Positions 7,435 to 21,863 of a stretch of DNA of 31,744 nt are shown here, piece after piece; within the stretch, counting starts at the first letter, position 1; the number at the start of each line of letters is the position of its first letter. The notes under the pieces are model-generated. The model was not told the origin of the DNA and searched no databases. It was given only the letters and a program-made list of their open reading frames with translations. The position numbers were made by a program, and so were the translations under genes. Origin of the DNA: a virus; IMG/VR virus record IMGVR_UViG_3300049053_000026, positions 1-31,744 of that record. One strand, given 5' to 3'.

Positions 7435-7839
7435 ATGCTCAAAATCGAGGTGAAGCGTCATAGCAAGCGCGAGGACTACTTCGAGCCCTGGATTGAGAGA
7501 TTCGATCACGGTGGTGGGTGGAGGTTTCACTTCCACTGGGACGACATCAGCGACGAAGGCGTAGAGGCCTTCCGCGAGATCTACGAGCAGCAGTCGACGT
7601 GCTGGCGCCCGCGTGCGGCCGATGCGCCGCGCGGCCCGCACATCCCCAACAAGATGGAGCGGAAAGCCGTACTGCCCGACGGTGAGAAAGTGGCCGTCTA
7701 CGACACGCCAGACGGCAACCTCTACATGGTGCGCGCCGACCTCATCTCGGAGCGAGGCGCCCGCCTCATGGCCCGCGCCCAATGGGAGATCTCCCGACAC
7801 TGGGAGCGCATCCCGCCTGAGGAGCGGACGGGGGAATAA
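7435..7839 (+). CDS. Unknown protein between repressor and integrase (134 aa)
   Basis: ATG at 7435 follows AGGAG and fixes the start; the frame upstream runs through the operator-like region and is not needed. The protein is charged and aromatic (DYFEPWIERFDHGGGWRFHF, HWDDISDEGVEAFREIYEQQ). It has a beta-rich middle (VLPDGEKVAVYDTPDGNLYM) and a helical end (RGARLMARAQWEISRHWERI). No membrane or catalytic motif is seen. It sits in the lysogeny transcript with repressor and int, so it could be expressed in lysogens, but its function is unknown. Confidence 0.7.
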   Translation: MLKIEVKRHSKREDYFEPWIERFDHGGGWRFHFHWDDISDEGVEAFREIYEQQSTCWRPRAADAPRGPHIPNKMERKAVLPDGEKVAVYDTPDGNLYMVRADLISERGARLMARAQWEISRHWERIPPEERTGE

Positions 7840-7873
7840 CCGCGCGACCGGCTGGCAGAGAAGGGGGCGGGGT

Positions 7874-9172
7874 ATGGCCTATGCGGAGAAGGTCTACAAG
7901 GTCCGCAACGGGGTGAAGACGAAGCAATTCACCTGGCGAGTCAAGTACAAGGCGCCGGACGGGCACGTACCGGAGGAACTGTCCAAGTCCGGCTTCGCGA
8001 CGAAGAAGCTCGCGGAGGACTGGGGGAACGAGCAGGAGCGGCTGATCCGGGAGGGGACCTGGATCGATCCTGCGAAGGCCACGGTGACGTTCGGCGAGTT
8101 CGCGCGCACGTTCATGAAGTCCCGGAAGAAACGCGGCCGCACGACCGGTACGCGCTGGGACAAGTTGGAGAACCACATCCTGCCGCGCTGGGACGGCGTC
8201 CCGATGCGGAAGATCTCGTGGTTCGACGTCGACACCTGGCAGCAGACCATGGACATCGAGGACGTCAGCCGCGGGCACTGCGTCAGCCTGATGTCGACCA
8301 TCATGACCGCGGCCGTCGACGCCGGGTACGTGACGGTGAACCCGCTATTCGGCCGGCGGCGCACGAAGGACACGTCCGGTGACGCGGCCCGGCCAAAGGC
8401 GCCGAAGGTCAAGCGGGACGGCGGCCCGCGGCCGGAAGACGCCGTCCTCCTGGCGGAGCGGCTCGGCCCGGCGGTCGGCGTCCACGTACTCACCACGGCC
8501 TTCGGGGGGCTGCGGTGGGGCGAGGGCCTCGGCCTGCACCGGGACAACACGCTGCTGTGGCGGCGCCAGCCGTGGGGGGCCGGCGAATTCGCCTGCCCGA
8601 TCCTCCGCATCAAGGAGGAGTACGCCGAGTACCAGGAGCGCGACGAGGACGGCGCCAAGAAGGGCTACGTCCTGAGGCTGGAGCCGACGAAGAACGACGG
8701 CTCGACGCGGGACGTGGACGTGCCGCCGTTCCTCGCTCTGCTGCTGAGCTACCACCTACAGGACTGGCCGCACGAACGTATCTTCTGCACGCCGTCCGGG
8801 AAGCCGTGGCGGCGGGGGAACTGGTCGCGCACCTTCCGGCCGGCCTGCGACGGACGGCAGGAGCGGGAGAAGCGCCAGGGCGTGGCGTACCGGGCGGCGT
8901 GGGATCCGATCCTGCCGGGCCTGGATATGCGGGCCCTGCGCGCGCTGCACGACACGCTGCAGTCGGAGCTTGGTGTGAAGGAGCCGCTCGCCTTCGAGGC
9001 GGCCGGGCACCGGCGGCCTGGCATCAAGCGGCACTACCAGAAGCCGACCCCGGCGATGCGCGCCGAACGGCTCGACGGCCTGGAGGAGACTTTCTGGCGC
9101 GCGCTGCGTAACGTGGGGTTGAGGACGTTGTGGAACAGGGTGGATCTCCGAAAACGGCCCCCGGAGAGTTGA
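7874..9172 (+). CDS. int: Tyrosine integrase (432 aa)
   Basis: Catalyses site-specific recombination between attP just downstream and a tRNA-Arg gene. Residues 1-65 form an arm-binding domain, about 70-160 a core-binding helical domain, and 185-415 the catalytic domain. Box I is GGLRWGE (R214); the beta-hairpin Lys is probably K273; box II is MRALRALHDT (R356, H359); box III is AGHRRPGIKRHYQK (H379, nucleophile Y388). In box II the usual H of HxxR is R353 (RALR) when aligned to typical Streptomyces integrases (HGLRHSHKT). ATG at 7874 follows AAGGGGG. Length is normal for large actinobacterial tyrosine integrases. The stop codon overlaps the first arm repeat of attP. Confidence 0.9.
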   Translation: MAYAEKVYKVRNGVKTKQFTWRVKYKAPDGHVPEELSKSGFATKKLAEDWGNEQERLIREGTWIDPAKATVTFGEFARTFMKSRKKRGRTTGTRWDKLENHILPRWDGVPMRKISWFDVDTWQQTMDIEDVSRGHCVSLMSTIMTAAVDAGYVTVNPLFGRRRTKDTSGDAARPKAPKVKRDGGPRPEDAVLLAERLGPAVGVHVLTTAFGGLRWGEGLGLHRDNTLLWRRQPWGAGEFACPILRIKEEYAEYQERDEDGAKKGYVLRLEPTKNDGSTRDVDVPPFLALLLSYHLQDWPHERIFCTPSGKPWRRGNWSRTFRPACDGRQEREKRQGVAYRAAWDPILPGLDMRALRALHDTLQSELGVKEPLAFEAAGHRRPGIKRHYQKPTPAMRAERLDGLEETFWRALRNVGLRTLWNRVDLRKRPPES

Positions 9173-9198
9173 CCTCCTAAATTCCTCCTAAATGATCA
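9166..9198 (+). repeat. attP arm repeat, copy 1
   Basis: 33-bp direct repeat matching 9421-9453 at 32 of 33 positions. Each copy contains CCTCCTAAA twice, 11 bp apart. It begins inside the last codons of int and lies 56 bp before the tRNA core. Likely an arm-type integrase binding site. Confidence 0.65.
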
Positions 9199-9254
9199 CT
9201 CGCGATGCAACGGCAGCGGGTGTCACCAGGAGGTATCCCGGTTCGAAGCGCCAT

Positions 9255-9297
9255 TCTCCTAAAGCGGGTGTCGCAGGTTCGAATCCTGCCGGGGGCA
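9255..9297 (+). other. attP core: 3' part of tRNA-Arg(CCU)
   Basis: The sequence reads as the 3' portion of a tRNA gene. It has the anticodon loop CTCCTAA at 9256-9262 with anticodon CCT at 9258-9260, the 3' anticodon stem AGCGG, a variable loop, T-stem GCAGG (9273-9277), T-loop TTCGAAT, matching CCTGC (9285-9289), acceptor strand CGGGGGC (9290-9296) and discriminator A. No matching 5' half (GCCCCCG, D-arm) precedes it, so this is not a functional tRNA. It is the identity segment phages carry so that the target tRNA-Arg(CCU) is rebuilt on integration. Confidence 0.8.
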
Positions 9298-9314
9298 CAG
9301 CGTTGAACAGGGCT

Positions 9315-9355
9315 AAGGCCCCGGAACTCCCAGGTCAGGGGGCATCCGGGGCCTT
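9315..9355 (+). terminator. Terminator hairpin downstream of the att core
   Basis: AAGGCCCCGGA (9315-9325) pairs with TCCGGGGCCTT (9345-9355) over a 19-nt loop, and TTCTC follows the stem on the plus strand. It is well placed to end int transcription or, after integration, the rebuilt tRNA transcript. Confidence 0.65.
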
Positions 9356-9420
9356 TCTCATGCCTCGTGATCCCACTCTGCCTACACACTGACTACACCC
9401 TAAATACGCGCTCACTACTG

Positions 9421-9453
9421 GAGTTGACCTCCTAAATTCCTCCTAAACGATCA
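9421..9453 (+). repeat. attP arm repeat, copy 2
   Basis: Second copy of the 33-bp repeat, 124 bp beyond the tRNA core end, with one T/C difference from 9166-9198. Its presence on the side opposite int shows that phage-type DNA continues past the core. Confidence 0.65.
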
Positions 9454-9483
9454 TGGCGTTTCCGCAGGTGAGCCCAGACGCGA

Positions 9484-9518
9484 GCAACCCCCGCACTCCC
9501 GTAGGAGGCGGGGGTTGC
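9484..9518. terminator. Bidirectional GC hairpin
   Basis: GCAACCCCCGC (9484-9494) pairs perfectly with GCGGGGGTTGC (9508-9518) around a 13-nt loop. It has no U-run. It resembles the stem-only terminators common in Streptomyces and separates attP from the accessory region. Confidence 0.55.
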
Positions 9519-9839
9519 CCTGTGTGCCGGGGCCACCGAGAGGGGGCTCCATTTCAGTGACGCCCGGCACGAATGAGGCCGGCGCAGGTTCGGTGCGGTG
9601 CGCCGACTGATCCATGTCTATCAACCCAGGTCAGAGCGGGAAATCACCCATCCGTGTGAACGTGTGTTCGATTCCCAGACACTACCTGGAGCCCTGCGGC
9701 ATATGCCAGTAAGCCGCAGAGCTGCCATGGGGGGTGGCGTAGCCGGTGGCGCGGGAAGCAGCTGGGGGCCTGCGAAGATCACAGAAAGCCCGCTGTCACC
9801 GGGCTGACATATGATGATGCAGGTCAGAGCGTTTGTCGA

Positions 9840-10076
9840 GTGCTTCCCGACCCGCCCGACGATCGTGAATGGCTGCTACGAGAGAGCCAACGTATCGGCA
9901 GACGAATCCGAGACGAACGCATAGACCGCAACCTCACGCAGGAGGCCGTGTTCCTGCGGGTCCCGCTGACTCGGAGCTTCTACCAGGAGATCGAGTCTGG
10001 GCAGGCGAACCCCACACTCGACACGCTGCTACGGATCTCGCGCGTCCTCGGTGTCACCATCGACCTCCTCCGCTAG
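9840..10076 (+). CDS. Small Xre-family regulator (78 aa)
   Basis: GTG start at 9840. The whole protein is a lambda-type HTH (RIGRRIRDERIDRNLTQEAV, then RSFYQEIESGQANPTLDTLL, ending RISRVLGVTIDLLR) that ends soon after the fifth helix, with no effector domain. A TATGAT box at 9810-9815 could drive it. The ribosome site is weak (AGGTCAG, 12 nt upstream). It lies beyond attP, outside the main switch, so in a prophage it would sit near one end. The shared 13-mer palindrome upstream (9695-9707) suggests cross-talk with the main repressor region. Confidence 0.75.
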   Translation: MLPDPPDDREWLLRESQRIGRRIRDERIDRNLTQEAVFLRVPLTRSFYQEIESGQANPTLDTLLRISRVLGVTIDLLR

Positions 10077-13047: not shown

Positions 13048-13093
13048 ACGAAAGCGGCCCCACCCTCCCGAAGGAGAGTGGGGCCGCTTTCGT
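13048..13093. terminator. Bidirectional terminator closing the late operon
   Basis: A perfect 16-bp stem, ACGAAAGCGGCCCCAC (13048-13063) with GTGGGGCCGCTTTCGT (13078-13093), plus four further inner pairs around a short loop. The A-rich and T-rich stem ends give a partial U-tract on either strand. It starts at the stop codon of the last lysis-region gene and ends 32 nt before cutA. It should stop the long late transcript. Confidence 0.8.
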
Positions 13094-13728
13094 CACGGGT
13101 ACTGGCGGCGGTGCGGGTCGAGAGCCATCGAGAGCGGGCCGTCGTCGGTCGGCTCCGGCTCCGGTGCGCTGTCTCTGCGACAGACGAGCGCGTCGGGGTC
13201 GTCCGGCGGGGCCTGAAGGCTGTAGCCGTCGGGGCAGGTCTGGCCGTCCTTGCCGTCGGCGCCGTCCCGTCCGTCTCTGCCTGGCGGCCCGCTCGGGCCC
13301 GGGACGGTGGAGTCGGCTCCCGCAGGGCCGGGTGGTCCCGACGGGCCGGGGACAGTCGAGTCGGTGCCGTCCTCGCCGTCCTTGCCAGGCGCCCCCGACG
13401 GCCCCGCCTTGCCGGGCTCTCCCTTCTCTCCCTGGGGTCCGCGCGGTCCGGGGATGGGGACGGGTACCCGGGTGCGGTCGTCGAGGTCGTCGACGGCCTG
13501 GCTCGGGTCGGGTGCTTTCGGTGTCTCGCCCGCGGCCTTCACCTGGGCGCGCAGGACGCGCACGTCGGAGGCGAGGACGCTGACCGCTTCGCCTCGCCGG
13601 TCGGCCTCGTCGGCCAGCTGGGTGTACCAGGACCAGCCGATGACGGCCGCCCCGGACAGGGCGATGAGCCAGCAGAAGACGGCGATCCATCGCCAACGCC
13701 CTGCGAGGGCCCGTTCTGCACGGGTCAC
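13093..13728 (-). CDS. Membrane-anchored collagen-like protein (211 aa)
   Basis: GTG at 13728-13726 overlaps the upstream stop (GTGA). Residues 14-34 (WIAVFCWLIALSGAAVIGWS) are a membrane helix, 36-66 a likely coiled coil (SVLASDVRVLRAQVKA), and 94-162 two blocks of Gly-X-Y collagen repeats (GPRGPQGEKGEPGKAGPSG). The second block contains the duplicated DSTVPGPSGPPG. A C-terminal domain with two Cys (QTCPDGYS, then LVCRRDS) and an acidic tail follows. The anchor, trimerising coil and collagen rod suggest an extended trimer projecting from the membrane, but topology is not proven. It is the last late gene, next to holin and amidase. A lysis-control, spanin-like or surface role is possible. Confidence 0.8.
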   Translation of the reverse strand: MTRAERALAGRWRWIAVFCWLIALSGAAVIGWSWYTQLADEADRRGEAVSVLASDVRVLRAQVKAAGETPKAPDPSQAVDDLDDRTRVPVPIPGPRGPQGEKGEPGKAGPSGAPGKDGEDGTDSTVPGPSGPPGPAGADSTVPGPSGPPGRDGRDGADGKDGQTCPDGYSLQAPPDDPDALVCRRDSAPEPEPTDDGPLSMALDPHRRQYP

Positions 13729-14200: not shown

Positions 14201-14932
14201 TCAGGCTCCCTTCTCCAGCGCGGTGACGCGCTTCTCCAGAGCGGTCAGCCGCTCCTCGACAGTCGGCGGCTTCGGCGCCGGCGTGGGCGTGCCCGGCGAC
14301 CAGCCGGCCGCATGCTTGAGCCGCTCGACCACGCGCTTACGGATGTCCGGCATGGACACCCCGGGGCCGCGCGGGTCGACCTTGCCGGGCTGCCACTCCT
14401 TGTGGCCGATGACCGAGGTGTCGCCGTCCTCACCCCAGCCGTGCGCCCGGCAGATCGCGGCCGAGACGCGGACGATCGCCTCGACCTGGACGGCGGGCCA
14501 CGGGTCCTTGCCGTCGCCGAGGTTCTCGCACTCGAAGCCGTAGAAGCGCGCGTTGCCGTCGGCGTTGGCCTCGTTCACCGCCGGGAGCGGCTTCTCGGCG
14601 ATGACCGCCTGGAGGACATCGTCGTCACCCAGCCCGGCGTGGTTGGCGCGGCCGTAGCCGACGAGGTGGACGGTGCCGTCCTTGGCGATGACGCCGTGGC
14701 ACAGCGGGCCGGGCAGTCCCGAGTAGCCGTCGGTGCAGATCTTGACCGTGGTTGCGGTGCCCTTGGTGACGGTGTGGTGGATCATCACGCCGTTCACGGG
14801 CCCCCAAGCGCCGTGTCCGGCCCGGTTGTGGGTGCGCCAGTCGCCGTGTTCTTGGACCTTCACGCCCTCGGCGCGCAGCTTCGCCAGGAACGTCGACGGG
14901 GTCAGGGGAGTAGCCAACATGCCTCCAGACAT
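14201..14932 (-). CDS. Endolysin: N-acetylmuramoyl-L-alanine amidase (243 aa)
   Basis: Cleaves the amide bond between muramic acid and the stem peptide to lyse the host. The Amidase_2/PGRP domain covers residues about 30-205. It has the zinc-ligand region VMIHHTVTKGTATT (H52/H53), YGRANHAG (H98), the acidic YGFECENLGD segment, and GHKEWQPGKVDPRGP (H177, K184, D186). A Pro-rich linker (GTPTPAPKPP) leads to a heptad-like tail (VEERLTALEKRVTALEKGA) that may form a coiled coil instead of a classical wall-binding domain. No signal peptide, so export needs the holin. The start is uncertain: ATG 14932 has no clear ribosome site and ATG 14920 lies only one base after GGAGG. Confidence 0.85.
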   Translation of the reverse strand: MSGGMLATPLTPSTFLAKLRAEGVKVQEHGDWRTHNRAGHGAWGPVNGVMIHHTVTKGTATTVKICTDGYSGLPGPLCHGVIAKDGTVHLVGYGRANHAGLGDDDVLQAVIAEKPLPAVNEANADGNARFYGFECENLGDGKDPWPAVQVEAIVRVSAAICRAHGWGEDGDTSVIGHKEWQPGKVDPRGPGVSMPDIRKRVVERLKHAAGWSPGTPTPAPKPPTVEERLTALEKRVTALEKGA

Positions 14933-14938
14933 GAGAAA

Positions 14939-14963
14939 CGCCCCGGCCTGGCAGCGCGGGGCG
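14939..14963 (-). terminator. Small hairpin before the endolysin
   Basis: CGCCCCG (14939-14945) pairs with CGGGGCG (14957-14963) across an 11-nt loop, in the 46-nt gap between the tail gene at 14979 and the endolysin. It may lower read-through into, or adjust translation of, the lysis genes. Confidence 0.4.
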
Positions 14964-14978
14964 ATGGACGGGTGAGGG

Positions 14979-15509
14979 TCAGCCGATGCGCCAATAGAGC
15001 ATTCGGGTCTGGTTGCCGCCGCGGAGGATCGTGTCGCTCGCATGGGCGGTGTTCTGCGCGAACTGCAGCGTGACCGAGCTGTTCGTGCCGTCCGTGGCGA
15101 AGGTGCCGCGGTCGTAGGCCGAGTGGAACCGGCCGGGCGGCGAGGTGGTGTCGGTGCCACCGGCGATACGGGCGGTGGTGTTGCCCGGCCGCCGGAAGAT
15201 GATCAGTGATCCGGTGTCGGCGGACGTGGTCGCCGCAGACGCCGCGTACCCGGCGGTGAACGAGGCGAGCGGGGCGCCGGGCGCGTTCCACGCCCACTTG
15301 AAGTCGCCGCCGTCGACCGCGCTGTAGGAGATGAACAGCTCGTAGTGGAAGAGAGCGTTCGGCTCCGGCGTGAACGTGATCTCCGAGTTGACCAGCGTCG
15401 TGGAGTTGGTCACGGTCTGGTCGTTCTGCTGAATGATCAGCCGGGCATGACGGGCGTTCATGTCGTCGGCGGTCATCGCCTGCCCGGCGAACCACTGGGG
15501 AATCGACAC
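14979..15509 (-). CDS. Minor tail or baseplate protein (176 aa)
   Basis: GTG at 15509-15507 follows a full AGGAGG. The N-terminus SIPQWFAGQAMTADDMNARH matches the start of many actinophage tail-tip proteins (W.AGQ..TA..MN). The remainder is beta-rich, with many Ser, Thr, Gly and Asn (VNSEITFTPEPNALFHYELF, PGNTTARIAGGTDTTSPPGR), as in a receptor-binding or fibre-end sandwich domain. It is the last structural gene before lysis and lies 8 nt after the PhoD-type tail gene. Probably part of the adsorption apparatus. Confidence 0.65.
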   Translation of the reverse strand: MSIPQWFAGQAMTADDMNARHARLIIQQNDQTVTNSTTLVNSEITFTPEPNALFHYELFISYSAVDGGDFKWAWNAPGAPLASFTAGYAASAATTSADTGSLIIFRRPGNTTARIAGGTDTTSPPGRFHSAYDRGTFATDGTNSSVTLQFAQNTAHASDTILRGGNQTRMLYWRIG

Positions 15510-15517
15510 AGCACCTC

Positions 15518-18253
15518 CTACAGGGCGACGGTGGCGGGCTGGGCGAGTGAGACGGCAGTGCCCGCGGCCTGCGCCTTGACGACGGTGTTGATGCTGCGGG
15601 TGACGGTCATGCGCTGCGGGGTGGTGATCTCGAAGTTGTCGTAGGAGACCGTCACCGGCAGCGTGTTGGTGTTCGTCGAGGACAGCGTCGAGCGCGCCCC
15701 GACCGAGCCGGCCGCCGTCAAGGACGTGTCCGTGACCGTTGCCTGCCACTGCTCAGGCTCGGCCTCCGAGGCGCGCCAGCCCTTGGCGCGCAGCGTCGTC
15801 CCGTCCAGCTGGAAACGGATCGTGTAGAAGGTGCCGGCCGCGTGCACGCCCGGCACGGTCACCGTCAGCAGGTCCGTCTGTGTGCCGGCCACACGCCGTT
15901 GGATGACCAGTTGCAGCGTCTGTGTGGTGGTGAACCCCAGTCGTGCCGCGTACAGGTTGTTCGCGTCGACGTAGCGGGCGACCAGGTGCAGGAACTGGCT
16001 GCCGCCTGCGGCGAGGGCGCTGGTGGCGCCGTCGACGCGCAGGTCGAGGTCGGCCGCCGGGGACGGGGTGATGGTGTAGCGGGAGGCGTTGACCGAGGTG
16101 ACCGAGTGCTGGCCGACGCTGCCGTTGGTGGAGAACTCCGACGCCGGGGCGTTCGCGACCGTCCACACGGCGCCCGAGGACGATGTGCCCCACCCGTTGG
16201 AGGTGGTGCGGGCGAAGTCGTCCCACGCGTATGGCGCGCACGCGGTGACGCGGACGGTTTCCCCGCCGAGCCGGACGTCGAAGGGGAACTGCGCGGCCTT
16301 GAGGTTGGGTGCGGTGGACAGCCCGGTGGAGATGATCCACGGGGCCCGGGCGAAGATGCCGTCGGGCGGGGTGTGCACCACCAGGCTCGTGGCGGAGTCG
16401 GTGACAGCGGCCACGAGCTCACTGGCGGACGTATCGAGCCGGTTGGGCAAGTTCGGTCCCGCAGTCGCTTCCGAGGCAGGCAGCTGGGCAACGATCCACG
16501 GGGAGCCCGGGGAGGCGTTCAGCACCACGTCCCAGTCGTTGGGGTGGCCGATGGTCTCGGTGCCGCCCTCGGCGATCAGGTTGATGGTGTCCGGCGCCAT
16601 CCAGGGCGGCGGGGTGGAGACGGTCATCCGGTCGCCCAGGTACAGGCCGGTCATCTCATCGGCCAGGTCTGGATTCTTGGCCAGGTCGATGCGCACCGAC
16701 GGGTAGCGGTCCTCGTCCACCGTGCTCAGGTGGACGCGCCAGGCGGCCATGTCGGGCAGCTGCTCGTCGGTGGCGACGTTCAGCTGGATCCTCTCGTCGT
16801 AGACGCCGATGCCGTCGGGGTCCTCGGCCGGGTCGTTGATGTTGTTGGGTCCGGTCGTCTTCGAGTACGTGTACTCGCCGCCGTCGACGCGCTGCGCGGT
16901 GATTTCGTTGCGGACCTTCTGGTCGTCGTCGGTCGGCTCGAACGGCTCCGAGACGTCGCCGGCCGTGTAGTCGAGGGCGATGAGCGTGCCACCGACGTGG
17001 ACGTGTTTGGTGTACGCCTTCCACACGGTGCCGTTGATGTAGCCCGTGCCGGTCATGGAGATGGTGTGGCCGTTGTCCGTGACGCGCATGGTGCCGTACT
17101 GCTGGCGGCCCTGGAGCTGGCCCACGTCGTAGATGGCCGTCGAGTTGGTGGCCGCGTAGCTGGAGTCCATCGACGCGAACATGAACATTGGGAACCGGCC
17201 GTAGGGGTTGTACGGGCCGGAGCAGATCGACAGGGCGTGTTCGTCGGCCGTCATGAAGATCATGCGGCCCAGCCAGCCGGTGTCACCGAACATCTGCACC
17301 AGCTCGTCGCGCTCGTGCTCGAAGCTGGAGTAGGTGTCGGTGCCGCCGATCCACCGTGACGACGACTGCCACACCAGGACCTCGGCGCCGCCCGCGTTCG
17401 AGGTCAGCAGGTTCTCGAACCACGTCTTCTGTGCGGTGCCCAGCAGCGTCTTGGACGGGCCCTGCGGGTCACTGTTGGGGTCGCGGAACGATCGGCTGTC
17501 GGTGGCCACGTACAGCACCCGGCCGACTTGCCACGACTGGTAGATGCCCGTTGAGCCGCCCGAGCCGAGGGGGTAGTGCGGCACCCACTCGCGGTAGACC
17601 TGGTTGGCGGCCGGGTTCGAGGCGGTGGTGCGGTTGGAGTCGTTGCCGCCGTAGTCGTGGTCGTCCCAGATGTAGGTGGACGCCACCGACCGGAAGAACT
17701 GCGACTGCCGTGCGGCCGGGTTGACGAGGGCCCCGAAGTTCATGTTCTCGAAGTAGGCGGTCCGGAACAGACTGACGTCGTTGGCGGAGATGTTCCGGTA
17801 GTGCAGGTCACCCAGGTGGGAGAACCACAGCCACTGTTCGGCTGCGCCCTGCTCGCGCATCGTGTCGAAGACCGGATTGTTCGACACCGCGCTGGTGATG
17901 TAGGAGTCGTTCCCGACGCCGGTCAGGCCCGCGTCGCCGGCGGCGCCGAAGATGTACGAGACGCGTTCACCGATAGCGGCGGGATGGGTGAGGAACTGCG
18001 CCTTGAAGCTGGGGTTCAGGGCGCCGTCGTCCACGACCACCCAGTAGCGGGTGCCCGGGTCCAGGCCGGTCACGTTCCAGTCGATGACGTTGTGGGCTCC
18101 GGAGGCGACGGGCCCGAATGAGACGGGCCCGCTCATGGCTTCGTTATCGGCGACCAGCAGCGTTCCGGAACCCGCCGCCGTCAGGCGGGCCTTGACGCGC
18201 GCGGTGGTATCAGTGGTAGCGCCGATCCATACCGAGGACACATCCAGCGCCAT
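15518..18253 (-). CDS. Tail protein with PhoD-type phosphodiesterase domain (911 aa)
   Basis: Multi-domain tail protein. Residues 1-90 are an Fn3-like N-domain (TARVKARL, LDPGTRYWVVVDDG). Residues about 97-400 form a complete PhoD-type metallophosphatase: GAAGDAG (D107), HLGDLHY (D149, H151), WDDHDYGGND (196-205), ATDSRSFR (D252, R254) and MTADEHA (D337, H339). Residues about 440-650 are an unassigned structural part. Residues about 665-890 resemble a LamG-like sugar-binding sandwich (DDFART...GWG...W, VARYVDANNLYAARLG). B. subtilis PhoD can cleave wall teichoic acid, so a depolymerase acting on host wall polymer during adsorption is a reasonable inference. ATG at 18253-18251; an upstream frame overlapping the neighbour is rejected. 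Confidence 0.85.
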   Translation of the reverse strand: MALDVSSVWIGATTDTTARVKARLTAAGSGTLLVADNEAMSGPVSFGPVASGAHNVIDWNVTGLDPGTRYWVVVDDGALNPSFKAQFLTHPAAIGERVSYIFGAAGDAGLTGVGNDSYITSAVSNNPVFDTMREQGAAEQWLWFSHLGDLHYRNISANDVSLFRTAYFENMNFGALVNPAARQSQFFRSVASTYIWDDHDYGGNDSNRTTASNPAANQVYREWVPHYPLGSGGSTGIYQSWQVGRVLYVATDSRSFRDPNSDPQGPSKTLLGTAQKTWFENLLTSNAGGAEVLVWQSSSRWIGGTDTYSSFEHERDELVQMFGDTGWLGRMIFMTADEHALSICSGPYNPYGRFPMFMFASMDSSYAATNSTAIYDVGQLQGRQQYGTMRVTDNGHTISMTGTGYINGTVWKAYTKHVHVGGTLIALDYTAGDVSEPFEPTDDDQKVRNEITAQRVDGGEYTYSKTTGPNNINDPAEDPDGIGVYDERIQLNVATDEQLPDMAAWRVHLSTVDEDRYPSVRIDLAKNPDLADEMTGLYLGDRMTVSTPPPWMAPDTINLIAEGGTETIGHPNDWDVVLNASPGSPWIVAQLPASEATAGPNLPNRLDTSASELVAAVTDSATSLVVHTPPDGIFARAPWIISTGLSTAPNLKAAQFPFDVRLGGETVRVTACAPYAWDDFARTTSNGWGTSSSGAVWTVANAPASEFSTNGSVGQHSVTSVNASRYTITPSPAADLDLRVDGATSALAAGGSQFLHLVARYVDANNLYAARLGFTTTQTLQLVIQRRVAGTQTDLLTVTVPGVHAAGTFYTIRFQLDGTTLRAKGWRASEAEPEQWQATVTDTSLTAAGSVGARSTLSSTNTNTLPVTVSYDNFEITTPQRMTVTRSINTVVKAQAAGTAVSLAQPATVAL

Positions 18254-18257
18254 ACGG

Positions 18258-19670
18258 TCACACCCCCTGGTTGTACTTCGAGGCCCTGGTGCGGTACGCG
18301 AGCCCCACTGTGTCGCGGGACTCGTACAGGGAGCCCCCGTCGACATCCGCAGCGGACTGGAGTAGGTCGAGGAAGGCGCCAGGCTTCTGTGGACCCATGG
18401 CGGGGGTCAGGTCAAGGTCGCCGTTGACCATCAGCGGTACACCCTGCTCGGCGCACACCCGCTCGATTCGCCGCCCAGCAAGCTCGCGCACATGCCCGGT
18501 GAAGGCCCGCCAGGTGTCGATAGCTGCGGGGGCGTCGGGCCCCCAGTAGATGAGGTGCCCGAGGACCAGGGCGTCAGAGGTGATGGTCGTGCTGGGAGTG
18601 GTGCGGTCCTCGAGGTTCCACCGGTACGTGATGGTTTCCACGGCCCGGTTTTGTACGGCGTGGGTGCCGCTGTCGCTGATGGCGCCGTCGACGATGACGG
18701 CCCAGTCGCTTCCGCCGGCCCCGTCGTCGGTGACGGACAGCCGGATCATGTGCGGGGAGGCGTCGGCGATGCCGGCGTCGTTGATGGTGGCGAGCAGGGT
18801 GGAGGAGGAGGTGGTTTCTCCTCGGTCGGTGACGCGGAGCTGGATGAGGTCGAAGACGTTGTCAAAGCTCATCAGCCACTCGCGGACCGGGTCCGAGTCC
18901 GTGCCTTGGCCGGTGTCGACGATGGTGAGTCCTGGGGTGGCGCCGTCACCTCCACCGCTTCGGTAGTGGTCGACGGCCCATGACGTGATGTCGTGGGCGG
19001 CGACGCGGGCGGTGAGCCGGCCGGTGGTGTCGTCGGGGAGTTCCACAACGGGGTCCAGCCACGCGGCCAGGCTTCCCTTCCCCCAGTTCGGCTGCCCCTG
19101 GTAGAACGAGCCGGCCTCACCGATGGCCCTCATCGGTGAGCCCCCGCCGACGATTTCCGTGCCCTGGATCGCGGTCTCACCGTCGGTGAGCGGCCAGTAG
19201 GCGAGCGGGCTGTGTGCGTCGACGTGGCGGCGCAGCGGATCACGCAGCGGCTTCCTGCCCTGCGACAGGCGCCGTCGAATCCCGTTGGCCTGGACGGTGG
19301 TGTACACGTCCTTGCCGGACACATCCCAGCGGGTCGGCCAACTGGAGATGTGCCCCTCGAACCGGTCGACCACAAGGCCGCTGGGCGTGACCAGGTCGAC
19401 CCGTACCGGGGTGTTCAGGCTCAGCAGCCCGTACAGGTCGCTGTTGGGGTTCTTGCGGGAGTAGCGGCCGAGGATGGTCGGGGCGGCCTTGCTCTGCCCG
19501 TTGTTGAACGTCAGCGGGCACTTGGTGGTGTCGGCCGTGGACGCCCAGTCCTGCCGCCCCCACGTGATGGCGATCTGAGTGCGGGCGTACACGTCGAGCG
19601 TGACGTCCATCCAGTCGCCGCTGACGTACAGGTAGATGGTGGCGACCAGCGGCGTGTCGGGGAACACCAC
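18258..19670 (-). CDS. Large minor tail protein (470 aa)
   Basis: Two consecutive GTG codons (19670 and 19667) follow GGAG; the first is used. The N-terminal 110 residues (DVYARTQIAITWGRQDWAST, then PVRVDLVTPSGLVVDRFEGH) look like the beta domain of actinophage tail-tip proteins that bind the distal tail tube. A LamG-like stretch follows (HSPLAYWPLTDGETAIQGTE, then WHAFTGHVRELA-type strands). The C-terminal part (RRIERVCAEQGVPLMVNGDL) ends in a Tal-like segment. It sits between the tape measure and the PhoD-type protein, the usual place for Dit/Tal components. Confidence 0.75.
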   Translation of the reverse strand: MVFPDTPLVATIYLYVSGDWMDVTLDVYARTQIAITWGRQDWASTADTTKCPLTFNNGQSKAAPTILGRYSRKNPNSDLYGLLSLNTPVRVDLVTPSGLVVDRFEGHISSWPTRWDVSGKDVYTTVQANGIRRRLSQGRKPLRDPLRRHVDAHSPLAYWPLTDGETAIQGTEIVGGGSPMRAIGEAGSFYQGQPNWGKGSLAAWLDPVVELPDDTTGRLTARVAAHDITSWAVDHYRSGGGDGATPGLTIVDTGQGTDSDPVREWLMSFDNVFDLIQLRVTDRGETTSSSTLLATINDAGIADASPHMIRLSVTDDGAGGSDWAVIVDGAISDSGTHAVQNRAVETITYRWNLEDRTTPSTTITSDALVLGHLIYWGPDAPAAIDTWRAFTGHVRELAGRRIERVCAEQGVPLMVNGDLDLTPAMGPQKPGAFLDLLQSAADVDGGSLYESRDTVGLAYRTRASKYNQGV

Positions 19671-19679
19671 GTGCGTCTC

Positions 19680-21863
19680 CTAGCTGCCGAAGGTGTCTTG
19701 CACGTCGCCGCCGCCGTCGACCGCGACGATGTGCCGGATCAGCTTCTTCACCGCCTCGGGGCCGTCAACGACCAGGCGCACGGTGACCTGCGCGCCGCCG
19801 GCCGGGGAGGCCATGAGCGGCCTGGTGCCCGCGGTGAGCGTCCCGGATGGTCGCATCTGCTCGGGGTCGACCAGCTTGCCGAGGGCTCTGTTCATGGCGG
19901 GCGCTTCTTCCTCGGCGCCTTGGAGGATGCCGGGCGGGATCCAGCGGCCTACGACGTCTGCCATGACCTTGGAGGGGCTACCGATGCCGAGCGCGTCGGC
20001 AACCGGGCCCGGCAGCATGTCCTTGGCGAAGCCGGACACCTTGTCCCACAGCCAGCCGCCCATGGATTTGATGCCGTTCCACAGGCCGCGGATGACGTCC
20101 TGGCCCTGGCTCCACAGCAGGCTGCCCAGATTCCCGACCGCACTGCCGATCCGACGGGGCAGGCCCCTCATCCAGTCGACGAGCCCGAGCGCCTGGCGCA
20201 CGGCCGCGTCCTTCATGTTGCGGAACCAGCCGGCCACCCAACCGGGAATCTGGGCGAGCCAGCCTACAGCGTCCAGCACGTAGCCGACGGCGGCCTGGAT
20301 CTTCTGCCAGACCCAGTTCCAGATGGCGCCGGTCCACTCCTTCACGGTGTCCCAGTTCGCGATGATCAGCGCGACCAGGCCGATGATGGTGGCGATGACC
20401 CAGCCGACCGGCCCCATAGCGATCAGCCACTGTGCGGCCATGACCGCCGCCCACGCGACGGCCTTTACGGCCATGAGCAGGAACTGCGCGGTGGACACGA
20501 GGGCGGCGCGGACGACGGCGGCGATCCACGTGCCGATCGAGACCAGTGCGGATCCCGTCCAGGCGGCCGCGGTGGTCAGCGCGGAAGTCACGGCCCCGGC
20601 GGCGATGCGCAGGTAGGCCATGAGACCGATGCCCATCATGCGCAGCCAGTTGCCGATGACGCCCCACGCGGACGCGCTGATGATGGCGTTGGCCCCGGCA
20701 ACGATGGAGGCGATGGCCGTATAGGCCATCATGGCGCTCTTGACGATCAGCACGGTGACGGCGAGGCCCGACAGCACGTAGGCGAGCGGCTCGAACACCG
20801 CCTGGTTCTCGGTGGCGAACTGGATGAACGTGCCGGAGACTTCGGACAGCTTCTGCACGGCCTGTCGCTTGAAGGACTCCAGCGCCGATGCCGGGTTGTC
20901 GCCCACGGTCTTGACGAGCTTGTCTGTGGATCCGGCGGCTTTGTCGATGCCGGTGGCTGCCGCGGCGCCAGCCGGGTCGAGGGCGAACAGCGCGTCACCC
21001 ATGACGGTGCCTGGGTCACCGAACAGGGCGGTGGCCGCGTTCAGCTTGACCGTCTCGTCCTTGGTTCCGCGCAGGGCGTCCAGGGTCATCTGGAGGGCTT
21101 CCTGCCCGGACTTGCCGCCTTGGCCGATCTTCGCGGCCATCTCGTCGGCGTCCAGCCCGATCGACTTGAAGGCGTCCTGGACGGTGGTGCTGCTGGACAG
21201 GGTGAGTTCGCCGAACTGGCCGATGGCGTCGGCGATCTGGTCGGCGTCGCGGGCGCCCGCTTCCAGGCCCTGAGCGAGCAGGGCAGTGGCGGTCTGCCCG
21301 TCCAATCCGATGCGGCGGAACTGCGTCGAGTACTCGTTGATCGTGTCGAGGAAGTCGTCGCTCTTGTTCGCTGCGGACTGGAATCCGGCGGTCAGGATGT
21401 CGAACGCCTCGGTGGCGTCGTCCGCCAGGCCGGTACGGATCAGCTGCCCCACGGCGGCGGTGGTCGGGCCGACCTCCTGGTCGAACGTCTCGGCCAGCGC
21501 GAGGGCCTTGGTGGTGACGCCCTCCAGTCCGCCCTCGACTTCGCTGACGTCGCCGATGTTGTTGTAGACGCCGCGGATGGCTTCGTTGACGGTCTGGACG
21601 GAGTCGCCCCATGCCTCGCCGTACACCTTGGCGCTCACCTTGGACAGCTCGGCCGCCTCGGCCGGGCCGACCCCGAGCTGCGCGGCGAGCTTGGAGTTAG
21701 CGGCCTCCATGTCCAGGTTCGCGGCGACACCGACGCCGAGCGCCGCGGCGACGCCGGCGCCGATGCCCGCGGCCGCGGTCTCGAAGTTCTGCTGTGCGGA
21801 GGACAGCCCCTGCTCGGTGTTGTCCCTCGCGACGAGGTTGAACACCAGCGACGTATCGCTCAC
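19680..21863 (-). CDS. Tape measure protein (727 aa)
   Basis: Sets tail length and probably passes DNA into the cell. Residues 1-330 are helical with Gly/Ala-rich segments (AAAGIGAGVAAALGVGVAAN), an Asp/Glu/Thr-rich TMP core and the typical FDILTAGFQSAANKSDDF element. Residues about 350-520 contain several hydrophobic helices (YVLSGLAVTVLIVKSAMMAY, GPVGWVIATIIGLVALIIAN), followed by Trp-rich repeats (WTGAIWNWVWQKIQ, LWNGIKSMGGWLWDKV) and the SPSKVM...G..IPPGILQG signature of phage tape measures. At about 0.15 nm per residue the tail would be near 110 nm, a rule-of-thumb estimate. GTG at 21863-21861 follows GGGGGT. It directly follows the frameshifted chaperone gene. Confidence 0.9.
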   Translation of the reverse strand: MSDTSLVFNLVARDNTEQGLSSAQQNFETAAAGIGAGVAAALGVGVAANLDMEAANSKLAAQLGVGPAEAAELSKVSAKVYGEAWGDSVQTVNEAIRGVYNNIGDVSEVEGGLEGVTTKALALAETFDQEVGPTTAAVGQLIRTGLADDATEAFDILTAGFQSAANKSDDFLDTINEYSTQFRRIGLDGQTATALLAQGLEAGARDADQIADAIGQFGELTLSSSTTVQDAFKSIGLDADEMAAKIGQGGKSGQEALQMTLDALRGTKDETVKLNAATALFGDPGTVMGDALFALDPAGAAAATGIDKAAGSTDKLVKTVGDNPASALESFKRQAVQKLSEVSGTFIQFATENQAVFEPLAYVLSGLAVTVLIVKSAMMAYTAIASIVAGANAIISASAWGVIGNWLRMMGIGLMAYLRIAAGAVTSALTTAAAWTGSALVSIGTWIAAVVRAALVSTAQFLLMAVKAVAWAAVMAAQWLIAMGPVGWVIATIIGLVALIIANWDTVKEWTGAIWNWVWQKIQAAVGYVLDAVGWLAQIPGWVAGWFRNMKDAAVRQALGLVDWMRGLPRRIGSAVGNLGSLLWSQGQDVIRGLWNGIKSMGGWLWDKVSGFAKDMLPGPVADALGIGSPSKVMADVVGRWIPPGILQGAEEEAPAMNRALGKLVDPEQMRPSGTLTAGTRPLMASPAGGAQVTVRLVVDGPEAVKKLIRHIVAVDGGGDVQDTFGS

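Follow-up and report, generated by a model that had tools for sequence, protein, structure and literature searches.

A PhoD-type phosphoesterase domain at the break of a split tail hub in a probable temperate Streptomyces phage

Here, we report a phage tail hub that is encoded as two separate chains, with a PhoD-family metallophosphoesterase domain seated at the break. The arrangement was found in a virus record of IMG/VR (IMGVR_UViG_3300049053_000026), of which a stretch of 31,744 nucleotides, hereafter called the window, was analysed. We propose that the composite protein is probably a tail-tip phosphodiesterase, carried by the split hub, that attacks phosphodiesters in the host envelope. 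In the following, we describe the locus, the enzyme domain and the hub, and weigh the readings that compete with this proposal.

Siphovirus genes run along the minus strand of the 31.7 kb record in the order terminase, portal, protease, capsid, tail genes, tape measure, the two hub genes (hub-N, followed by PhoD::hub-C), amidase endolysin and collagen-like tail protein, and an integrase gene lies on the plus strand. The tape measure protein (19680..21863, minus strand; PF10145, E 5.7e-20, and a PHROG tape measure match) is encoded directly upstream of the hub. A small protein of phrog_24062 (14979..15530, minus strand), with a similarly placed small ORF in the related locus L213, separates the hub from an N-acetylmuramoyl-L-alanine amidase endolysin (14201..15001, minus strand; PF01510, E 3.1e-22), and a collagen-like repeat tail protein of phrog_1806 (13093-13728, minus strand) is encoded downstream of the endolysin. 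The integrase (7613-9172, plus strand; phrog_1) lies in a region that is 79% identical to that of the Streptomyces rimosus actinophage RP3. Since the endolysin additionally resembles endolysins of Streptomyces phages and split-hub relatives are present in Streptomyces genomes, the record very likely derives from a temperate Streptomyces phage; the same three lines of evidence back the Streptomyces host assumed in a preliminary description of this DNA. Beneath the integrase-region match, the attP core of RP3 is annotated.

The gene for the PhoD::hub-C protein starts with an ATG at position 18253 and extends to 15518 on the minus strand (15518..18253; 911 aa, 912 codons including the stop), and its product was assigned by PF09423 and PHROG matches. 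The interval named in the preliminary description coincides exactly with this ORF on the minus strand; no matching ORF was found on the plus strand of the same interval, which encodes no such protein, and a plus-strand reading was dropped. An AGGGGG ribosome-binding-like site and conservation of the start position in relatives support the ATG at 18253. A longer version starting at 18346 (942 aa) was rejected because its 31 additional codons would lie across hub-N coding sequence read in a different frame; it is also disfavoured by several relatives, in which the frame lacks an upstream extension.

The first part of the protein, aa 1 to about 423 (16985..18253, minus strand), is a PhoD-family metallophosphoesterase domain, as judged from PF09423, the 2YEQ fold and invariant ligand columns, and it includes a PhoD_N-like beta domain at aa 1-90. 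In profile searches with the 911-aa protein, PF09423 was matched with 44.5 bits against a cut-off of 27 (E 1.5e-11), and PHROG 24476 ‘phosphodiesterase’ was matched with E~0. The AlphaFold (AF2) model of the chain is of moderate quality (pLDDT 72, pTM 0.50). A Foldseek search against the PDB gave Bacillus subtilis PhoD (2YEQ) as best match (E 2.9e-16, TMt 0.53), followed by purple acid phosphatases; 2YEQ is also the closest solved sequence, with 17% identity to the window protein in the structural alignment. The bacterial alkaline phosphatase PhoD equivalog NF058638 was not matched by the window protein at E 0.01, and the relatives L211 and L215 score 24-30 bits with it against a cut-off of 1000. 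An Fn3-like domain had been described ahead of the enzyme. There is indeed a domain at that place, yet probably not a separate module: it occupies the position of PhoD_N/PAP_N, to which relatives show weak matches, and is thus most likely PhoD’s own N-terminal domain.

All five motifs of the family, previously described as present in order, were confirmed: GAAGDAG at residues 103-109 (with D107), GDLHY at 148-152, WDDHDYGGND at 196-205, D252-S-R254 and TADEH at 335-339. Alignment to 2YEQ predicts D107, D149, Y152, D197, D198, N204, D205, D337 and H339 as metal ligands; most of the ligand roles were taken from the literature (PMC4223295), while those of Y210 and H438 were placed by us. The mapping to N204/D205 requires a one-residue loop shift, which is backed by an N[N/D] pattern in relatives and by the observation that N272 of PhoD is sometimes replaced by Asp (PMC4223295). 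In the B. subtilis enzyme, activity is abolished by mutation of C180, D265, N271, N272 or D436 and nearly so by mutation of D207 or D266, and the iron is also held by a Tyr (PMC4223295). All 17 comparable PhoDs of split hubs retain the nine ligands when Asp or Cys is allowed at the iron and Asn or Asp at the position of N272; a further split locus, which is truncated and was kept outside this set, shows only part of them. The window carries Asp107 in the column in which the subfamily of B. subtilis and S. chromofuscus has its Cys ligand. Since two PhoD subfamilies are described, with exactly Cys or Asp as iron ligand (PMC4223295), this residue assigns the window PhoD to the Asp subfamily and is no sign of decay. 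Among split-hub PhoDs the iron ligand is Asp with the exception of L081 and L224, two records of one contig, and in most cellular relatives found it is Cys. Taken together, sequence and model strongly suggest an apparently intact enzyme with every metal ligand, for which catalysis is predicted. A copy of a host PhoD was considered and discarded, as the genome of Streptomyces sp. cf386 yielded nothing beyond the prophage protein and a single match that lay outside the PhoD domain; the nearest cellular PhoDs belong mostly to other phyla.

What follows the enzyme is the second half of a tail hub. Residues 424-672 (16238..16984, minus strand) form a gp27/VgrG-like hub C-terminal half, which an earlier reading had overlooked together with its upstream partner gene. 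This partner (18258..19670, minus strand) encodes the hub N-terminal half of 470 aa, which ends with ...SKYNQGV at the insertion point. Both genes match consecutive stretches of phrog_5313, namely 437-792 for hub-N and 786-1038 for the C-terminal part of the PhoD chain (of 1052 positions); these are the best stretches, with a second one existing for each ORF. At the junction (18251..18270, minus strand), CAG GGG GTG TGA closes hub-N and a gap of 4 nt precedes the ATG of PhoD, so that the AGGGGG motif ahead of this ATG is formed by the last hub-N codons. The remaining residues 673-911 (15521..16237, minus strand) comprise a LamG/CBM-like jelly roll and a terminal segment, recognised with Foldseek and shared with intact hubs. 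The LamG-like assignment made earlier was borne out by Foldseek matches to CBM66 (4b1m, TMt 0.72) and to the carbohydrate-binding module (CBM) of the evolved Dit of phage J-1 (5ly8), and BLASTP matched the region to Gibson gp24, Dubu gp16, Dagobah and Yara gp22. An extra lectin-like domain, present near aa 85-300 in intact relatives, is missing from hub-N of the window.

In the isolates Gibson (gp24), Dubu (gp16), Dagobah, Chymera (gp18) and Yara (gp22), both hub parts reside in single intact proteins encoded after the tape measure gene, and PhoD is absent. With profiles of the two hub parts we collected 126 records of loci with both parts, some of them re-fetched, which stem from a degenerate DNA pattern, from a PhoD query, from isolates and from the window itself. 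Among the matches listed, both parts lie in one ORF in 115 of these 126 records, usually 1-2 residues apart, and are split in the other 11, a number in which the window is counted twice (as such and as L001) and to which the PhoD query contributed four. In each of the 11 splits, a PhoD domain about 420 residues long sits at one identical point, between YNQ and ..LDY, and the interruption always comprises a stop and a new start. Further queries yielded additional splits, several of them on other parts of contigs that had been included before, and overall the arrangement occurs in at least 15 phages and prophages, among them some of Streptomyces and the Thermobifida phage P1312. No other cargo was seen at the PhoD junction in the loci searched. 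The 851-aa ORF of L242 contains a CBM-like insert (about aa 421-565), in frame and about 20 residues upstream of the PhoD insertion point, which suggests that the region tolerates insertions.

In 17 split loci, the distance from the hub-N stop to the PhoD start ranges from -4 to +10 nt, with all three relative frames represented. Together with the AGGGGG motif before the ATG, this spacing indicates two translationally coupled chains. A sequencing error as cause of the split was rejected, as the split recurs in many phages and in all three relative frames; the latter also makes a programmed frameshift, which would yield one hub-PhoD-hub chain, unlikely. The hub fold was checked on the intact relative L128, which is 40% identical to hub-N of the window and stood in for its two chains. 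Its model (pLDDT 81, pTM 0.82) matches the 43 kDa tail protein of MuSo2 (3cdd), T4 gp27 (1wth), VgrG and the DT57C baseplate (8hqz), and the insertion point is flanked by a short helix (425-428) and by a strand (435-438). Hub-C is modelled with a pLDDT of about 66 in the PhoD chain and about 87 inside the intact hub, two values obtained with different underlying alignments; the lower confidence of hub-C alone is as expected if it needs hub-N. For PhoD, dN/dS values of 0.14-0.52 (below 1, purifying selection) were obtained, mostly near those of the hub halves.

A match to the window protein was found in 53 of 394 genomes from the genus to which Streptomyces sp. cf386 belongs, and the PhoD part was matched in only three of them (G001, G094 and G256). 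The other matching genomes, about 50, contain hub-C and/or the jelly roll only, and most hub-C matches start at the junction, with query residue 422-427. Entry thus does not generally require PhoD. A tree of 102 hubs, built from N and C parts, places the ten split rows on one side of a single branch (support 82). The other 92 rows, which occupy many deep branches, all have an intact hub, and the simplest history is therefore that PhoD was inserted into such a hub.

PhoD domains borne on tail hubs fall into one phage-only clade of 22 rows (support 100/97). In other ARRANGEMENTS, PhoDs of this clade form the N-terminal part of fusions with other tail proteins or are located beside an intact hub. 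In L210 and L215, PhoD precedes a phrog_1885 tail protein, and in L211 one of phrog_1887/DUF5047. Counting L212, L214 and L216, six such loci carry same-clade PhoDs in front of unrelated tail proteins, with Cys as iron ligand. L213 and L217 (4922-9084) have an intact hub and a separate same-clade PhoD gene after it, in the order tape measure, intact hub, PhoD, small ORF and endolysin-like ORF, a layout that is a possible precursor of the hub insertion. In the tree, PhoD of L081 groups with the fused PhoDs, so that an exchange of the cargo, or two insertions, may have taken place; an AU test did not reject a single split-site clade (p 0.134). Two metagenomic viral proteins of 700-1000 aa (L015 and L223) contain PhoD-like domains with an Asp iron ligand after other N-terminal domains.

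How would such a split hub work? We suggest that an ancestral single-chain hub of the gp27/VgrG/Mu-gp44 type was interrupted by the PhoD domain at one short loop. The hub would now be made as hub-N (470 aa) and PhoD::hub-C (911 aa), which would be coupled and should fold together. With the chain interrupted and only the C-terminus of PhoD tied to the hub, a large domain could sit at a tight loop. Hubs of the gp27/VgrG type are trimeric, and about three PhoD units are thus to be expected at the tail tip. The tail location given in the preliminary description is backed by the fusion to a hub half and by a gene position immediately behind the tape measure gene. We strongly infer that PhoD resides in the virion, and the hub halves presumably reassemble. 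The metal centre is expected to consist of Fe3+ and two Ca2+, with the iron held by D107 as in purple acid phosphatases. At adsorption or entry, the enzyme would hydrolyse a phosphodiester polymer of the host envelope, for which poly(diglycosyl phosphate) and wall or lipoteichoic acid are candidates.

The substrate is the least certain part of our best explanation. By analogy with B. subtilis PhoD, teichoic acid appears plausible. The main polymer of Streptomyces walls is reported to be teichulosonic acid, which is free of phosphate, and poly(diglycosyl 1-phosphate) a minor one (PMC11481543). Phosphodiester wall polymers may therefore be minor, and teichoic-acid stripping is one of several options. 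Since B. subtilis PhoD and purple acid phosphatases act on monoesters too (PMC4223295), scavenging or another use is a further one.

The reported phosphate-free nature of the main wall glycopolymer (PMC11481543) also speaks for a serious rival, which we nevertheless consider unlikely: PhoD might act as a tail-tip phospholipase D that attacks membrane phospholipids for DNA entry rather than a wall polymer. The domain is attached to the hub, the tail part nearest the membrane, and the second member of the PhoD family to be characterised biochemically, from Streptomyces chromofuscus, is a secreted phospholipase D (PMC4223295). This phospholipase, however, is assigned to the Cys subfamily (PMC4223295), whereas the split-hub clade is almost all Asp. 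The Cys type of the related hub-fused PhoDs was likewise weighed against the rival; on account of these proteins, the iron ligand type tracks no single substrate. We regard it as improbable that PhoD serves as a receptor-binding or receptor-releasing module, which would recognise a phosphodiester-containing receptor and cleave it slowly or not. The lectin-like jelly roll lies next to PhoD in the same protein, and most phages with this hub lack PhoD, as expected of a host-range module, but metal ligands that are invariant across divergent copies argue for catalysis and not for binding alone. Finally, it is highly improbable that PhoD plays no part at the tail tip and is moron-like cargo, joined to a hub half by accidental gene fusion: stand-alone PhoD/PAP-like genes without a hub half do exist, e.g. 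Jay2Jay gp121 and in Microbacterium phages, where phosphate scavenging is imaginable, but hub-C is found only on the PhoD chain, which should thus be needed for a working hub, and purifying selection and recurrent attachment to other tail proteins speak against mere cargo.

Returning to the tail-tip phosphodiesterase, we note that peptidoglycan hydrolases are known components of the tail tips of phages with Gram-positive hosts, joined in some cases by phosphodiesterases of the GDPD type. A hub-borne PhoD/PAP-type metalloenzyme would add an enzyme class to this set. The arrangement appeared undescribed in the literature when PhoD was searched together with phage tails, and purple acid phosphatase together with minor tail protein, a search space outside which most subscription papers lie. 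By this literature, the preliminary statement that such depolymerases are little described in actinophages was fair, yet GenBank labels the P1312 homologue ‘phosphodiesterase’. A bolder hypothesis, which we put forward tentatively and with some doubt, is that the phage-only PhoD lineage moves as a module among actinophage hubs, splitting one hub family, fused before unrelated tail proteins and lying beside one intact hub, and that its substrate is a poorly studied actinobacterial phosphodiester polymer (poly(diglycosyl phosphate) or lipoteichoic acid) or the membrane. If true, this would constitute a new class of tail-tip entry enzyme. The split hub is a natural example of how a conserved scaffold protein can be cut so that a tight loop accommodates a large enzyme. 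Should the enzyme degrade a wall polymer of Streptomyces, it would offer a specific reagent for glycopolymers that are difficult to investigate.

Compared with known systems, the window shares with B. subtilis PhoD (2YEQ, PF09423) the fold and the ligand correspondences D207 to D149, Y210 to Y152, D265/D266 to D197/D198, N271/N272 to N204/D205 and D436/H438 to D337/H339. It differs in having Asp107 in place of the iron ligand Cys180, in starting directly at the PhoD_N-like domain, which leaves no room for a signal peptide, and in being fused to a tail hub half. Thermobifida phage P1312 is the only one among 50,697 phage records to cover at least 80% of the window protein. Like the window, it encodes hub-N (ALA06392, tail protein) and then PhoD::hub-C (ALA06393, phosphodiesterase) directly after the tape measure gene, listed in GenBank as two separate genes, with 48% identity over PhoD and the first part of hub-C; no paper describing its hub split was found in our literature search. 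Just after its PhoD tail gene, P1312 (L002) also carries genes for a ‘glycosyl/glycerophosphate transferase’ (9071-10066, P1312_027) and an O-methyltransferase, which might modify the polymer targeted by the tail enzyme. The stand-alone PhoD/PAP-like actinophage proteins Jay2Jay gp121 (‘hydrolase’) and Microbacterium phage Rowlf gp26 (‘purple acid phosphatase’) are 28-31% identical to the PhoD domain but are encoded by separate genes without fusion to this hub. A functional parallel is offered by the GDPDs in tail modules of enterococcal phages, phosphodiesterases proposed to cut wall teichoic acid; in contrast to the window, they belong to PF03009 and to phages of another host group, and a split hub is not reported in the passages considered (PMC10194240). 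The evolved Dit of phage J-1 with its CBM insertions (5ly8) likewise places a functional domain on a conserved tail-tip scaffold, although for carbohydrate binding and not for catalysis. The chain of an evolved Dit stays one polypeptide. The gp27, VgrG and Mu gp44 hubs (3cdd, 1wth, 8hqz), finally, have a fold in common with the intact relative L128, whereas the hub of the window consists of two chains, with the enzyme domain at the break.
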